Origin: Candidatus Symbiobacter mobilis CR | GTDB taxonomy: Bacteria; Pseudomonadota; Gammaproteobacteria; Burkholderiales; Burkholderiaceae_C | DNA length: 64,000 bases | Assembly: GCF_000477435.1 (NCBI RefSeq) | Contig: NC_022576.1 | Location: 62,001-126,000, forward strand | Direction of reading: 5' to 3' | In this document: piece by piece, positions 455-58,464 of the stretch | How the letters are laid out: every line of letters starts with the position of its first letter | Numbering within the stretch: position 1 is the stretch's first letter | Position numbers and translations under genes: made by a program | Notes under the pieces: model-generated | What the model saw: only the letters and a program-made list of their open reading frames with translations | Database searches by the model: none | What the model was told of the DNA's origin: nothing

Positions 455-829
455 CTAAAAATGGTCACTGTTACTGCTTTGATTGCCGCAGACCCTGAGG
501 CAGAATTGGCGCCCACAGGAGAAATCGTGTCCATTGCCCACGGTACTCACAATCTTCTTGCCGCGTTTGCCTGAGAGACGGTAGGGGGCGACGAATTTGG
601 GAGCCATCCAACGCACGCTGTGGCCAAACGTGGCAAACTGACGCACCCAATGGTGAGCGCCGGAGCAGGCTTCCATGCCGATGAGGCATGGCGGTAGTGA
701 GGCGATGAGTTCCAGCAGCTTTGCGCGAGGCACGTGGGGGCGTATCAGCACGGCATTTCCGGAAGAATCCACACCATGCACGGCGAAGACATTCTTTGCC
801 AGATCGATGCCAACGGTTACGATAGCCAT
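455..829 (-). pseudogene. IS110-family transposase remnant, internally deleted
   Basis: The 124-residue frame begins with the N-terminal DEDD-type domain of IS110 transposases (GIDLAKNVFAVHGVD; LIGMEACSGAHHW; APKFVAPYRLSGKRGK). After GKRGK, where intact family members read NDAADA, it jumps to STVGNGHDFSCGRQF, which resembles the C-terminal Transposase_20 region (GN-HDF--GRQF). The rest of the C-terminus is absent. An internal deletion of roughly half of a normal ~340-residue protein is the simplest explanation, so the enzyme is dead. Some IS110/IS1111 members insert specifically into attC sites; the neighbouring attC boxes suggest this was one of them. Confidence 0.8.
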
Positions 830-948: not shown

Positions 949-955
949 GTTAGAC
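949..955 (+). other. attC R'-type core box GTTAGAC
   Basis: GTTAGAC fits the GTTRRRY core at which integron cassettes join. It lies 14 bases before the ATG of the DUF4160 remnant, the usual spacing between a core site and a cassette gene. Its partner R'' box is not visible on the left, where the IS110 remnant lies, so the site may have been split by that insertion. Confidence 0.45.
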
Positions 956-969
956 GCTACATTCCTGCC

Positions 970-1208
970 ATGGCACCGACGATTTTCCGCGAGGGCGGTT
1001 TCCGCTTCTTTTTCTTCTCAATGGAATAGGAAAGAATGCATGTACACGTCAACCATCCTGACGGCGAGGCCAAATTTTGGTTAACACCGAAATTAGGGCT
1101 GGCAACGAGACCGGGCTTTCGCCCCAAAAAATCAAGGAAGCCCAGAACTTGGTTGCTGTTCACTTGGAGGAAATTACCCATGCCTGGAAAACTCATTTCC
1201 CAAGCTGA
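970..1208 (+). pseudogene. DUF4160 family gene with an internal stop and a frameshift
   Basis: Translation from the ATG gives MAPTIFREGGFRFFFFSME and then TAG (1027-1029). The frame resumes as MHVHVNHPDGEAKFWL, the signature of DUF4160, and then leaves the family frame at a run of six A (1126-1131). In the -1 frame the expected end KIKEAQNLVAVHLEEITHAW is present and stops at 1206-1208. Both lesions mean no full-length product. DUF4160 and DUF2442 genes are often neighbours; here the last 29 bases overlap the start of the next gene. Confidence 0.75.
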
Positions 1209-1449
1209 AGTTACCCATGTTTCACAACATGGCTTTTGGCTGCTGCTTGCCGACGAAGAACTTTTTTTGCCGTTCACAAGCTTCCCGTGGTTTCGCGGCG
1301 CAACCATTGAGCAACTGTGCCAAGTGGAATGGCCGACTGAAAACCACCTTTTCTGGCCGTCTTTGGATATCGATTTGTCTGTCGAGTCCATTCGCAACCC
1401 GTCAGCGTTCCCGCTCATGGCAGCTATTCCAGCGCCCAATCGGGGGTAG
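1180..1449 (+). CDS. DUF2442 domain protein, C-terminus altered by a group II intron
   Basis: The 89-residue product has the DUF2442 pattern (GFWLLLADEELFLPF, FPWFRGATI, HLFWPSLDIDLSVESI, NPSAFPL). Function is unknown; the family usually sits beside DUF4160, as here. The start ATG lies inside the DUF4160 tail. The last residues APNRG and the stop come from the 3' end of the intron remnant that follows. If the intron is removed the frame continues as APN-PAVKRDAALKRVAPYF and ends inside the attC site, typical of cassette genes. Confidence 0.75.
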   Translation: MPGKLISQAEVTHVSQHGFWLLLADEELFLPFTSFPWFRGATIEQLCQVEWPTENHLFWPSLDIDLSVESIRNPSAFPLMAAIPAPNRG

Positions 1450-2445
1450 GCAACGGTTTCTAGCCGTCGCCCCCCACACCCCCCACCGTGCGGGTCCGCA
1501 GTGGGCGGTTCAACAAGTCGGCTCGCTCGACGATGTCTTTCGCTTTGTAACCATGTAACCTTGTGCCTTGCACCCCAGGTCTTTCACACTCAGCAAACCC
1601 TGCTCCTGTAACCACACGTTGGATAGGGCCTGATTGATAACCGGGGTTCTGGACATCGGCTAATAGCTGTTGCTGCTGACTCCGTGCTGAATTGCCGACT
1701 TCAGGCTTATGCCCAAAGCCAGCAAGTTCTTAATCTTCGTGCGCGGCCAGCGCCACTGTTTCCAGTAGCACATCCGCATACGCCGTCTGATCCACTCGTC
1801 CAGTTCGGGTACCGGGCGGTAATACTGGCTGATGCCAAAGTAACCCGTCCACCCCCGCACGTATTGCCCCAGTTTCTTTAGCCGGTATTCCATGGAAACG
1901 CCCCAGTTTCGCGCAGTCAGCTTCTTGATGCGGTGCTTGAAATCCGCCAGGGCCTTATCAGTCCAGCGTACTTTCTTGCCCTTGATCGTGAAGCCCAAAA
2001 AGGCGCATTCACTCATCGGTGCCACCTTGCTTTTGACCAGCACCCCGGCGCGCAGGTAGCGCCCAAATTTGCTGTCGCACGGCTGGCCAGTGTGCGCATG
2101 CATGGGTGGGGAAGCCTTCCATGGTCACGCCGTCATCCATTCGCACCGCACGCGGCGCAGATCTCCCCAGGTAAGAACGCAAACTTTCTGTGCGCAAACG
2201 CCGCATTTACCCTAAGCGCCAAACCGATGGCTTTGCCGTCCTGTGCCAGCTCGCCTCAGCTCTCTGGGCCTTCTATGCGGTTCCTGTTCGTCGTCTCGCA
2301 CCTTTGCACTCAGGCTTCCTCCAGACTACTTCTCGCGAAGCAGCCCTTGCCGTCGGCTAGTGGTTACTATTGCTCACGTTGAGTCCAATCCGGTTCTCCC
2401 ACAGGGGACTTTCACCCCATAAGTTCGCGCCCATGCTGGGCGCAC
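1439..2445 (-). mobile_element. Group II intron remnant, copy 1, inserted in an attC site
   Basis: On the minus strand the element starts GTGCGCCCAGCATGGGCGCG, a typical bacterial group II intron 5' end, continues with GTGAAAGTCCC and GGGAGAACCG, and ends with a domain V/VI-like hairpin region and CCCGAT. At about 1 kb it is half the length of an intact intron because the encoded protein is deleted internally. Joining the flanks 1431-1438 and 2446 onward gives GCCCAAC, an exact attC R'' box. The intron lies opposite to the cassette genes, as group IIC-attC introns do. Confidence 0.8.
1660..2206 (-). pseudogene. Group II intron reverse transcriptase/maturase remnant (copy 1)
   Basis: Three pieces of one protein remain. 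Near 2100-2130 one frame reads HWPAVRQQI (start of the RT domain). Then GRYLRAGVLV (middle of RT) runs into KSKVAPMSECAFLGFTIKG, and from about 1710 to 2000 comes the group II maturase domain (KLTARNWGVSMEYRLKKLG, QYVRGWTGYFGISQYYRPVP, MRMCYWKQWRWPRTK). The RT catalytic YADD block is missing. A TAG at 1660-1662 interrupts the C-terminus, which would go on as MSRTPVINQALSN. The protein cannot be functional. Confidence 0.82.
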
Positions 2446-2506
2446 ACCCCGCAGTCAAGCGGGACGCCGCGCTGAAGCGAGTCGCACCTTACTTTTGACG
2501 TTAGGC
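2446..2506 (+). repeat. attC site, right part (split by the intron)
   Basis: After the intron 5' end the + strand reads ACCCCGCAGTCAAGCGGG and, further right, CTTTTGACGTTAGGC, whose last seven bases are a perfect GTTRRRY core (2500-2506). Together with GCCCA at 1434-1438 this makes a site about 66 bp long with boxes GCCCAAC and GTTAGGC. The stop codon of the original DUF2442 frame (TGA, 2497-2499) lies inside it. Confidence 0.72.
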
Positions 2507-4291: not shown

Positions 4292-4826
4292 ATCGGGTAA
4301 GGCAACGACTTCTAACCGTCGCCCCCCACACCACCCACCGTGCGGGTCCGCAGTCGGCGGTTCAACAAGTCGGCTCGCTCGACAAAGTCTTTCGCTTCAT
4401 ATCCATGTAACCATGAGCCTTGCACCACAGGTCTTTCACACTCAGCAAACCCTGCTCCTGTAACCACACGTTGGATATGGTCTGTTAGATATGGCATAAT
4501 TGATAACCGGGGTTTTGGACATGTGCCATTAGCTGTTGCTGCTGACTCCGTGCTGAATCGCCGACTTCAGGCTTACGCCCAAAGCCAGCAAGTTCTTAAT
4601 CTTCGTGCGCGGCCATCGCCACTGTTTCCCGTAGCACATTCGGATGCGCCTTCTTATTCACTGATCCACTCGTCCAGTGCGGGTACCAGGCGGTAATACT
4701 GGCTGATGCCAAAGTAGAAAGTAGCCCTTGCCGTCGGCTAGTGGTTACTATTGCTCACGTTGAGTCTCATTCGGTTCTCCCACAAGGGACTTTCACCCTA
4801 TAAGTTCGCGCCCATGCTGGGCGCAC
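4292..4826 (-). mobile_element. Group II intron remnant, copy 2, in a second attC
   Basis: Both ends match copy 1: the minus strand begins GTGCGCCCAGCATGGGCGCG and ends CCCGAT after the same domain V-like hairpin. Only 535 bp remain. The piece corresponding to most of the encoded protein and the middle of the ribozyme is deleted between the CAAAGTA at about 4713 and AGCCCTTGCCGTCGG at about 4728; both sequences occur in copy 1 about 530 bases apart. Protein fragments such as KIKNLLALGVSLKSAI remain. The left flank GGCCTA is an attC R''-like box missing one A at the junction. Confidence 0.78.
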
Positions 4827-4869: not shown

Positions 4870-4891
4870 ATCAGGTAGGCAACGGCTTCTA
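4870..4891 (-). mobile_element. Stub of a third group II intron 3' end
   Basis: ATCAGGTAGGCAACGGCTTC on the + strand matches the first bases of copies 1 (ATCGGGGGTAGGCAACGG) and 2 (ATCGGGTAAGGCAACGAC), again just behind a GCCTAA box. It ends abruptly where the inverted-repeat element begins. Confidence 0.6.
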
Positions 4892-5003
4892 GTAAAGTGG
4901 ATCCGAATGTCATGACAATTTTTTGGTCGATGTAAGCTGTAGCTGTTTTCCCTGGATTGAAGGACATCTTCCATTTTTGTCTTGAATTCGGGGCCCACTT
5001 TAC
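4892..5003. mobile_element. 112-bp inverted-repeat element (IS remnant or MITE-like)
   Basis: The segment is bounded by perfect 9-bp inverted repeats GTAAAGTGG (4892-4900) and CCACTTTAC (4995-5003), with partial complementarity continuing inward (ATCC against GGCC). It cuts the intron stub on the left and ends 17 bases before the trmL start. I do not recognise a transposase fragment inside it. It may be two joined ends of an insertion sequence or a small non-autonomous element. Confidence 0.5.
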
Positions 5004-21236: not shown

Positions 21237-21450
21237 CGATCACACTGGCCAGCCGTGCGACAGCAAATCAGAGAAGGGCGATACCAGCCGCAGGCCGTGC
21301 GCAGGGTAGACAGCGCGGGTGATGCAATCGATCACGCGGTATCTGGAAACCATTCTCCAACTCCAGGTCAATCTTGCCCAAAGCAAGATGGCACCGATGA
21401 GTGAATGCGCCTTTTTGGGCTTCACGATCAAGGGCAAGAAGATACGCTGT
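21237..21450 (+). pseudogene. Group II intron reverse transcriptase remnant (copy 4)
   Basis: Two pieces remain. HWPAVRQQIREGRYQPQAVR (from about 21241) is the start of an RT domain, and LETILQLQVNLAQSKMAPMS followed by ECAFLGFTIKGKKIR is the junction to the maturase domain. They lie in different frames with the catalytic core gone. The protein is nearly the same as in copies 1 and 2, but here on the + strand, opposite to the minus-strand cassette at 21.5-22.5 kb. Confidence 0.72.
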
Positions 21451-22536: not shown

Positions 22537-22728
22537 ATGAATGCGCTCACTTCCCAACCGCCTCGCCTCCTTGACCAAAGTCGGGAGGCGGTTCGTTTGC
22601 GGCATTACAGTTTACGTACCGGGCAAGCATACATCCATTGGACAAAACGCTTCATTCTTTTGCATGGAAAGCGCCATCCTCGTGAACTGGGACCCAAAGA
22701 TGTGGAGACATTATTGACCTTCTTGTGG
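22537..22728 (+). pseudogene. intI: Integron integrase IntI, N-terminal fragment
   Basis: From ATG 22537 the product reads LLDQSREAVRLRHYSLRTGQ, AYIHWTKRFILLHGKRHPRE, LGPKDVETLLTFL. This is the N-terminal SAM-like core-binding domain of integron tyrosine recombinases. Homology ends near 22728, and by 22779 the sequence is the end of livF. The catalytic R-H-R-Y domain is missing, so the gene is dead. An upstream ATG (22507) is in frame but not supported by the family. Confidence 0.82.
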
Positions 22729-22778
22729 GGACACCAGAACAGCCATAAGCGATCCACGGCCTACGCTGCCTACGCCAC

Positions 22779-56601: not shown

Positions 56602-57480
56602 ATGAAGATTTTTCGCAACCTTCTGGGAACTCCGATGTTTGTCATCGGAATGGTTTTGTTTCTCGGTACCATTCTGATTGCTGTGGTTGGCCCGCTGGTG
56701 TATCCCGTGCAGATGCATCAGGTTGCCGGTTCCTACGCTGCACCGGGAACCGTAGGGGTGTGGGTCGATCCTGGGACGGGCGCGTCTTCAGAAATCACGT
56801 TGCTCTTGGGTACGGACAACATGGGGCGGGATTACGTGTCTTTGCTCATCATGGGGCTACGCTCTTCCCTGTATGTCGGCCTGCTCGCCGGGACCATCGC
56901 GACCGCGCTGGGAACCTTGTTGGGGGTCTATGGCGGTTTCAAAGGGGGGTGGATCGACGATGCCCTCAACTCCATCACGAACCTTTTCATTGTGATTCCT
57001 TCGTTCGTCGTGCTGATTCTGATCAGTGCCAGCATTTCGACGGGGCGCTCGCTCACGCTTATCGGTCTCATCATTGGGCTGACGACGTGGACATGGTCGG
57101 CACGTGCGGTGCGTGCGCAGTCTTCCGCGCTCAAGAGCCGCGACCACATTTCTCTCGCACGAATGAATGGCGACCGGACACTAGTCATTCTCATCAAGCA
57201 CATCCTTCCGTATCTGCTTTCTTATGTGTTCATGGTCTTTATCCTGCAGATTGCCTCGGGCATCTTGTCGGAAGCAGCCATTTCGATGATCGGGCTAGGC
57301 CCGCTCGATACGCAGTCGTTGGGGGTGATCCTCAACGATGCCAAAAACAACGGCGCGCTCGGTGATGGGGTGTGGTGGGCATTTTTCCCCGCTTCGATCT
57401 TCATCACCTTGATCGTGTTTGCGCTGTATCTGGTCAACACCTCCATGGAGGGGGTCTTCAACCCCCGCCTGCGCAGGTAG
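56602..57480 (+). CDS. ABC transporter permease, OppC/DppC type
   Basis: The 292 residues have six membrane segments. Family signs are LLGTDNMGRDYVSLLIMGLR near the start and the loop RAQSSALKSRDHISLARMNG, then HILPYLLSYVFMVFILQIAS. It pairs with the preceding permease to form the channel. One base separates the two genes. Confidence 0.9.
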   Translation: MKIFRNLLGTPMFVIGMVLFLGTILIAVVGPLVYPVQMHQVAGSYAAPGTVGVWVDPGTGASSEITLLLGTDNMGRDYVSLLIMGLRSSLYVGLLAGTIATALGTLLGVYGGFKGGWIDDALNSITNLFIVIPSFVVLILISASISTGRSLTLIGLIIGLTTWTWSARAVRAQSSALKSRDHISLARMNGDRTLVILIKHILPYLLSYVFMVFILQIASGILSEAAISMIGLGPLDTQSLGVILNDAKNNGALGDGVWWAFFPASIFITLIVFALYLVNTSMEGVFNPRLRR

Positions 57481-57489
57481 GAGCACTTG

Positions 57490-58464
57490 ATGCCCACGTT
57501 TGAAGTCGAACACCTTAGTCTGCATTATTTGACCCGTTTTGGGGGCAAGGTGCATGCAGTCTCCGACGTCTCCTTCACGATGGAGAAGGGGGAGATTCTT
57601 GGGATAGCCGGGGAATCCGGTTGCGGCAAGTCCACCATCGTCAATGGGCTGATGGGGCTATTCATCCCTCCCTTGCAGCTTACTTCCGGCGATGTGCGCG
57701 TCAATGGCGAATCGCTGATGCACCGTACCCCGGAAGACGTGCGCGCCAATGTGCTGTCGCGCAAGGTTTCGATGATTCCGCAGGGGGCGTTCAACGCACT
57801 CAACCCGACGCGCAAAGTCAAGGACATTGCGGCAGACGTCATCGCTGCGCATGAGGATGCTGGTTCGGATCGCAAGGCGATTTACCAGCGCTTGCACGAA
57901 CGCTTTGATTTGTTCGGCATGGATACCGAGCGCGTGCTGAATTCCTTCCCCATCCAGCTCACTGCGGGGGAACGGCAGCGCTCGGTCATCGGCATTTCCA
58001 CACTGCTCAATCCGGAGATGGTCATTGCCGATGAGCCTACGTCGGCCTTGGATGTCAGCACGCAGAAGGTGGTGATCCGCATGATCTTCGACTTGCTCGA
58101 CAAGGGGATTTTTTCCACGATGATTTTCATCACCCACGAGCTGCCTTTGCTGCGCCATGTGGCCAACAACATTGCCATCATGTACGCGGGGGAAATTGTC
58201 GAAAAGGGAACGACAGAGCAAATCGTTTTTGATCCTCGACATCCTTACACCAAGGCGCTCATGGGTGCGATGCTCAGTGCAGAGGCAGGCCAGCGCCAGA
58301 AAAAGCCCGTGGCTATCGAAGGAGCGCCCCCCAATCTCGCCAAGCCGATCAGCGGTTGCCGTTTTGCCGACCGCTGCCCAAGTGCAAGGCCGGAATGCAA
58401 ACTCCAGACTCAGACGATCCGCATGGTCGCAGGCCGTGAGGTGAGGTGCAGCTATGCAGAGTAG
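57490..58464 (+). CDS. ABC transporter ATPase, OppD/DppD type
   Basis: The 324 residues include Walker A GESGCGKSTIVNGL, signature QLTAGERQRSVIG (a degenerate LSGGQ), Walker B MVIADEPTSALDV, H-loop IFITHELPLLRHV, and the oligopeptide-family C-terminal cysteine motif CRFADRCPSARPEC, which in some relatives holds an Fe-S cluster. A TTG three bases upstream could also be the start. It overlaps the next gene by 11 bases. Confidence 0.92.
   Translation: MPTFEVEHLSLHYLTRFGGKVHAVSDVSFTMEKGEILGIAGESGCGKSTIVNGLMGLFIPPLQLTSGDVRVNGESLMHRTPEDVRANVLSRKVSMIPQGAFNALNPTRKVKDIAADVIAAHEDAGSDRKAIYQRLHERFDLFGMDTERVLNSFPIQLTAGERQRSVIGISTLLNPEMVIADEPTSALDVSTQKVVIRMIFDLLDKGIFSTMIFITHELPLLRHVANNIAIMYAGEIVEKGTTEQIVFDPRHPYTKALMGAMLSAEAGQRQKKPVAIEGAPPNLAKPISGCRFADRCPSARPECKLQTQTIRMVAGREVRCSYAE

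Follow-up and report, generated by a model that had tools for sequence, protein, structure and literature searches.

A 1,007-nt derivative of a group IIC intron occupies positions 1439-2445, on the minus strand, within the attC site of a gene cassette of Candidatus Symbiobacter mobilis CR. Very probably, it is a non-autonomous member of the group IIC-attC introns, which spread after it had suffered deletions and which split the attC of a cassette carrying a DUF2442 gene. Coordinates are given as positions in the window, i.e., the whole 64,000-nt stretch of DNA that was analysed (genome 62001-126000), unless they are marked as genome positions, and the genome searched was the single contig of 2,991,840 bases. 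The features of the insertion (the window copy), of the interrupted cassette and of a neighbouring copy are as follows.

950..2506, plus strand: gene cassette (DUF4160 remnant, DUF2442 and attC), with the intron inside its attC
1180..1449, plus strand: DUF2442 open reading frame of 89 aa, which ends in APNRG inside the intron
1434..1438, plus strand: 3' exon of the intron, the first five bases of R'' (GCCCA)
1439 and 2445, minus strand: intron ends, the 3' end CCGAT at 1439 and the 5' end GTGCGCCC at 2445
1439..1510, minus strand: domains 5-6 (RF00029, 26.6 bits, below the cut-off of 40)
1660..2103, minus strand: maturase domain X, a remnant of the intron-encoded protein (PF08388 GIIM, 72.6 bits)
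2035..2036, minus strand: deletion joint 3, 237 alignment columns lost, found in five copies and in genome 56866-58208
2066..2067, minus strand: deletion joint 2, 347 alignment columns lost, shared by five copies
2134..2135, minus strand: deletion joint 1, 404 alignment columns lost, position ambiguous by a base or two
2176..2342, minus strand: segment of ribozyme domains 1-4 (Rfam RF02001 group-II-D1D4-3, 124.3 bits, E 4.2e-25)
2446..2506, plus strand: 5' exon of the intron, the rest of attC (from AC of R'' to R')
4292..4826, minus strand: second, more deleted copy of the intron, 535 nt, in another attC

On the top strand, GCGCCCA runs to 1438, the intron takes up 1439-2445, and ACCCCGCAGTCAAG continues from 2446. 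Read 5' to 3' on the bottom strand, the 5' exon ending in GACTGCGGGGT is followed by the intron, which starts with GTGCGCCC and ends with CCCCCGAT, and by the 3' exon TGGGCGCTGG. Joining of the flanks gave a 66-base attC with R' GTTAGGC at 2500-2506 and with an R'' box rebuilt as GCCCAAC, as the first-pass annotation of this DNA had predicted for the removal of the intron. The joined site was identical at 62/66 positions, end to end and without gaps, to an uninterrupted attC (genome 49957-50022, minus strand), located about 13 kb from the one split by the intron. Among the 216 alternative joins scored against this uninterrupted attC, 1438/2446 was the best; the join 1439/2447 ties with it, because 1439 and 2446 are both A and the joined letters are the same. 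Moreover, the intron start GTGCG and the intron end GAT are common to other copies and to a 2,030-base relative from the same genus, and the ends recur at 18 5' junctions and 27 3' junctions among the copies. Thus, the boundaries can be regarded as settled at 1439/2445, which is where the first-pass annotation had drawn them. Its further proposals, that the intron lies opposite to the cassette and belongs to the attC-targeting group IIC class, agree with the location of DUF2442 on the plus strand and of the intron on the minus strand, with the antisense insertion within R'' on the bottom strand of attC, and with the RF02001 match of 124 bits. When folded as DNA, the joined attC of the window copy was no better than shuffles (z 0.16), and the uninterrupted attC was better than shuffles (z -2.51).

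An integron integrase is encoded at genome 46767-47711 (TIGR02249, 477.1 bits, cut-off 265), and an attC covariance model, for which seven attC sites (six joined by us) served as the training set, matched the array at genome 48517, 49722, 49957, 59354, 61515, 64440 and 66063. The integrase and the attC matches from 48517 to 66121 therefore place the insertion within a chromosomal integron, the array of which enters the start of the window. The limits of the interrupted cassette were inferred from R' boxes, namely the preceding R' (GTTAGAC, 949-955) and its own R' (2500-2506). The uninterrupted attC, together with its cassette flank, is inverted relative to the six other attC matches of the array. 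Away from the array, an integron-integrase-like N-terminal fragment is present at 22567-22767, and integron-integrase-like genes that are apparently broken into pieces are present at genome 2386892-2387603 and 2684223-2684692. An open reading frame at 455-829 (minus strand) gave no Pfam match at E 0.01; we take it to resemble the start of an IS110-type transposase. The main text of the genome paper (PMC4053972) contains no word starting with integron or intron.

According to PMC7923331, the target is TTGT/T within R'', on the bottom strand of attC, with the intron running against the cassettes; the GGGT/T site of the window copy agrees with this majority sequence at 3/5 positions. The 5' exons end in GT in 16/18 copies (in three of them after sliding by 1-2 bases), this GT is mostly preceded by bases other than TT, and an RYYYAAC box is found 53-61 bases upstream in 7/18. 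Directly 3' of the intron, T is present at 24 and TRRRY at 15 of the 29 complete 3' ends, which are not all independent because some flanks duplicate each other; the background of TRRRY in the fetched stretches is 1.1%. These 29 comprise 26 ends (T in 22, TRRRY in 14) and three that were found only with the relative's intron as the query (T in two, TRRRY in one), and the copy at genome 56866 was left out of the count, since its last bases are missing. An exact GTTRRRY box was rebuilt in 5/13 copies that have both ends, or in 6/13 if the copy at genome 1011295 is slid by one base, which would give GTTAGGC; the near misses are one GTTAGGG and one GTTAGCC.

The same copy (genome 1011295-1011596) is preceded by a GC-rich hairpin and a run of T, and the insertion of group IIC introns after terminators is known (PMC4424553), so that the target might have been a terminator-like hairpin and the position in attC incidental. 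For the window copy we consider this highly improbable, as its joined site aligns to the uninterrupted attC and R'' is the box that was split. Additionally, of the at least 19 genomic matches of the attC model (E up to 1; best 150 of 1674 candidates scored), 8/19 adjoin the 5' end of an intron, six of these eight being training sites of the model and two not.

Mapping by BLAST to the two longest copies in the genome, A (genome 2156195-2157777) and B (genome 2159663-2161232), resolved the window copy into B 1-332, B 716-784, B 1134-1163 and A 989-1583, the A part being matched by BLAST to 1580. The TIGR04416 match in the protein remnant covers positions 248-353 of 353 and scores 61.5 bits, under the cut-off of 300. 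Judged by this anatomy, the window copy is an ORF-deleted derivative and not a complete intron, with most of the reverse-transcriptase gene lost. In domain 5, alignment and fold revealed a T-to-G change relative to six other copies, which turns a G.U pair into G.G, and which affects a pair that we take to belong to the catalytic triad. Two extra C's precede the terminal GAT of the window copy, in a run at 1442-1446. The genome was sequenced by 454 (PMC4053972), and read errors may account for these C's as well as for the change in domain 5. Because it has no reverse transcriptase and carries the domain 5 mismatch, the window copy is probably inactive now. The low Rfam score of domains 5-6 was dropped as a sign of decay: RF00029 is insensitive here, because it was reported at only 3/12 loci and not for the complete relative (L121). 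A consensus scan of 1000-2800 for an outward promoter in the intron, of the kind reported for the group IIC-attC class in PMC8876359, found 0 (0.8 expected in shuffles), and one may still be present.

The insertion also altered the cassette gene. The joined frame reads ...MAAIPAPN-PAVKRDAALKRVAPYF-stop and comprises 103 aa, and the interrupted frame comprises 89 aa, the last 16 residues being swapped for Arg-Gly. The first-pass annotation had the DUF2442 frame running on into attC, and indeed 16 further codons follow, with the stop within attC. Its claim of a changed C-terminus holds for the shortening from 103 to 89 aa and for the Arg-Gly end; the effect of this change is, however, probably minor, because the residues that were lost stem from reading through attC, and homologues from the same genus terminate where a putative attC starts. 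In line with that, the DUF2442 domain itself is, by its PF10387 match (64.3 bits, E 1.2e-17, profile positions 2-70 of 72), complete in the interrupted protein, which is probably still functional. Apart from this gene, no DUF2442 paralogue was found in the genome at E 0.001, and a plasmid search for DUF2442 gave three records, all below 60% identity. Upstream in the same cassette, a DUF4160 gene (968-1190) is broken, as seen by eye, by an in-frame stop and a frameshift, and what remains of it forms a single open reading frame with DUF2442 (1036-1449), in which DUF4160 scores 22.7 bits, slightly below its cut-off of 23.

Homologues of the DUF2442 protein end in more than one way. A search for intron-free homologues, which the first-pass annotation had suggested, returned five (L050, L051, L052, L053 and L057; 80-90% identical) with AVK[RQ]xAP tails (AVKRDAP, AVKRGAP, AVKRDAP, AVKRDAP and AVKQDAP, respectively) that are read through attC-like DNA, the likeness of these tails being due to the conservation of attC. 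A sixth, L056, reads into a recognisable attC with a different tail. Intron-free cassettes of this kind can thus, as far as these frames indicate, read through attC. On the other hand, L055 (84% identical) stops inside its own R'' box, at 86 aa, and the same-genus homologues L127-L131 (the DUF2442 ends were read for 6/9 loci of relatives, these five and L134) stop directly behind ...FPLVSGAAG or close to it and have frames of 89-93 aa. In 4/5 of them the stop codon lies within an R''-like box (GGCTAAC or similar), and an R'-like box is present downstream in two, so that these proteins appear to stop at the start of a putative attC. Moreover, 25/40 homologues with a recognisable FPL motif end no more than eight residues after it, and the interrupted protein ends nine residues after it. 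The natural protein might, therefore, end about where the interrupted one does, in which case the attC read-through would be fortuitous and nothing important would have changed. We consider this unlikely, given the five homologues that continue in the attC frame and given that 0/45 fetched homologue loci encode a protein naturally ending in APNRG, an ending for which they were specifically inspected. The replacement of a read-through tail, with probably little consequence for the protein, is the reading that we prefer.

The window copy belongs to a large family. At least 38 pieces of the intron, merged by hand and amounting to 17.2 kb, are present in the genome, and none is complete; these are lower bounds, as the best 40 of 59 and the best 40 of 53 candidates were scored in the searches. 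The three deletion joints of the window copy are shared with the copies at genome 1882422-1883427, 1884350-1885083, 2154749-2155592 and 2679467-2680437 (subtype I). The five copies are 92-95% identical to each other, and their 300-base flanks have no similarity at E 1e-4 beyond the attC body. Within subtype I, the copy at 2154749-2155592 lost a further piece and that at 1884350-1885083 is without the 5' end. The occurrence of the same three joints in five copies at unrelated sites therefore indicates that the deleted form multiplied after the deletions. Two other copies, genome 2444839-2445490 and 2599454-2600101, are 92.9% alike and have a different set of joints (subtype II).

Some copies combine features of others. 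Genome 56866-58208 is a mosaic, with the 222|633 deletion of copy A and with joint 3, but without joints 1 and 2, and genome 1881060-1881641 has joint 1 and not joint 2. These mosaics imply that recombination among copies occurred as well, and copies A and B, which are 99% identical over the enzyme and 94.6% identical over the first 222 bases, fit with it. Thus, the three deletions could instead have been spread by gene conversion or homologous recombination among full-length copies that were already in place. We regard this as possible but doubtful, since all three joints are shared at five unrelated sites, and a long conversion tract would have been needed each time. Regional identities do not decide between conversion and movement, because two of the five copies lack most of the 5' part. 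Multiplication of an already deleted form remains our preferred explanation.

Other remnants differ in what they have kept. An uninterrupted paralogue of the cassette end that carries the second copy is located at genome 49.8-50.2 kb. A further intron tail (4870-4892, minus strand) is located some 43 bases past the second copy, on its 5' side and beside the shortened attC of that copy, and an internal intron fragment is present at 21241-21449 (plus strand), away from the array. Three pairs of remnants resemble each other in one flank only (2395276/2592381, 92%; 2664655/894633, 98%; 1008628/2590026, 96%), as would be expected if cassettes were duplicated or flanks were exchanged at intron copies. 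A LINE-like origin of the 5' truncations was considered and dropped: among about 20 elements without a 5' end, 14 were inspected and an attC ending in GT at the break was found in 0/14, where the breaks are BLAST limits that may be off by a few bases. In element 2666226, 19 bases separate the break from the start of an attC, which would fit a deletion reaching from within attC into the intron. The 5' truncations look like later deletions.

As for the source of the enzyme, RVT_1 had four matches in the genome (all candidates scored), and its whole profile is covered in copies A and B only, in stop-free frames at genome 2156611 and 2160490. Copy A is without about 410 bases on the ribozyme side, and copy B is without the end of the enzyme and ends before domains 5 and 6. 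No copy was found in the genome in which ribozyme and enzyme are both complete. Copy A could encode a 436-aa protein with RVT_1 and GIIM and with no endonuclease match; among known structures, this protein is best matched by the GsI-IIC reverse transcriptase. In a genome of the same genus (G010), an apparently complete 2,030-base intron (L121, 916-2945) has an open frame of 452 aa, in which only RVT_1 and GIIM were matched. The domain content of both enzymes and the structure match of that of copy A point to a class C enzyme without an endonuclease domain, so the group IIC class put forward in the first-pass annotation suits the fuller genomic copy too. Together with this intron, the G010 loci (L121, L122, L123) contain several deletion derivatives, including one that joins 1-313 to about 1716-2030; in the search of 60 relatives, at most seven matches were taken per genome, and the counts are lower bounds. 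To judge from their sequences, the derivatives in G010 are the product of the same process in another species.

These observations can be arranged in a single history. A parent intron of about 2 kb would have recognised the folded bottom strand of attC, a mechanism known from the group IIC-attC family, and would have inserted between GT and T of R''. In the form now found in the window, both ends and the nearby ribozyme segments were kept, and three internal deletions removed most of the reverse-transcriptase gene. The deleted form would then have multiplied by splicing and retrohoming, with the reverse transcriptase supplied in trans by a fuller copy, e.g., from the 436-aa frame of copy A; judging by the sequences, an enzyme from such a copy is the most likely route of spread, and A is a candidate driver. 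The insertion in the window split the attC of the DUF4160-DUF2442 cassette and replaced the end of the DUF2442 frame. As the intron and the gene run in opposite directions, splicing cannot restore this frame. Recombination at the interrupted attC would be expected to have ceased, and this would freeze the cassette in the array.

We are somewhat inclined to see in this family a bacterial parallel to SINEs: group IIC-attC introns without an enzyme, generated by internal deletion on two or more occasions within one genome, which spread to new attC sites and outlived every complete parent there. If this were true, the spread would have relied on a borrowed reverse transcriptase in both subtype I (five copies) and subtype II (two copies), and the chromosomal integron with the scattered attC sites would be an intron graveyard and a substrate for recombination.

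The insertion of group IIC introns in attC, their orientation and a truncated example have been described (PMC7923331, PMC4424553, PMC8876359), and multiplying ORF-less introns have been described in Thermosynechococcus elongatus (PMC2882425). No description of multiplied ORF-deleted group IIC-attC introns was found in the literature, in a search of mostly non-subscription papers. What seems new here is neither the attC insertion nor the ORF-less spread but the multiplication of enzyme-less introns in an integron-targeting lineage. The genome offers a set of such introns with a series of deletions and shared break-points, by which the action of a group IIC enzyme in trans and the reshaping of cassette arrays by introns become testable. 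The window copy also illustrates how a single attC insertion can give a gene a different end and, at the same time, probably inactivate a recombination site.

The window copy is like S.ma.I2 of the Serratia marcescens integron in that it sits within R'' on the bottom strand of attC and runs against the transcription of the cassettes, and the endonuclease-free, GsI-IIC-like enzyme of introns of that type is seen here in the fuller copy. Unlike the S.ma.I2-type introns, as far as the published accounts of them go, the window copy has its enzyme gene deleted and a 5' exon of GGGT instead of TTGT, its relatives make up at least 38 pieces in the genome, none of them complete, and it has replaced the C-terminus of a cassette gene. 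With UHB.F1 it shares the incompleteness, the location in a cassette array and the opposite orientation; UHB.F1 is, however, probably 5' truncated, whereas in the window copy both ends are present and the losses are internal. The introns of T. elongatus are of class IIB. As here, several of their copies share deletion break-points, and a possible supplier of enzyme in trans exists in the form of a related intron with an enzyme gene of its own in the genome (PMC2882425). In T. elongatus, one ORF deletion is found in 17 copies and mobility in trans was demonstrated by assay (PMC2882425). In contrast, a complete driver intron is absent from the genome studied here, and its introns, known from sequence alone, are of the group IIC-attC kind and fall into two deletion subtypes, with five and two copies.
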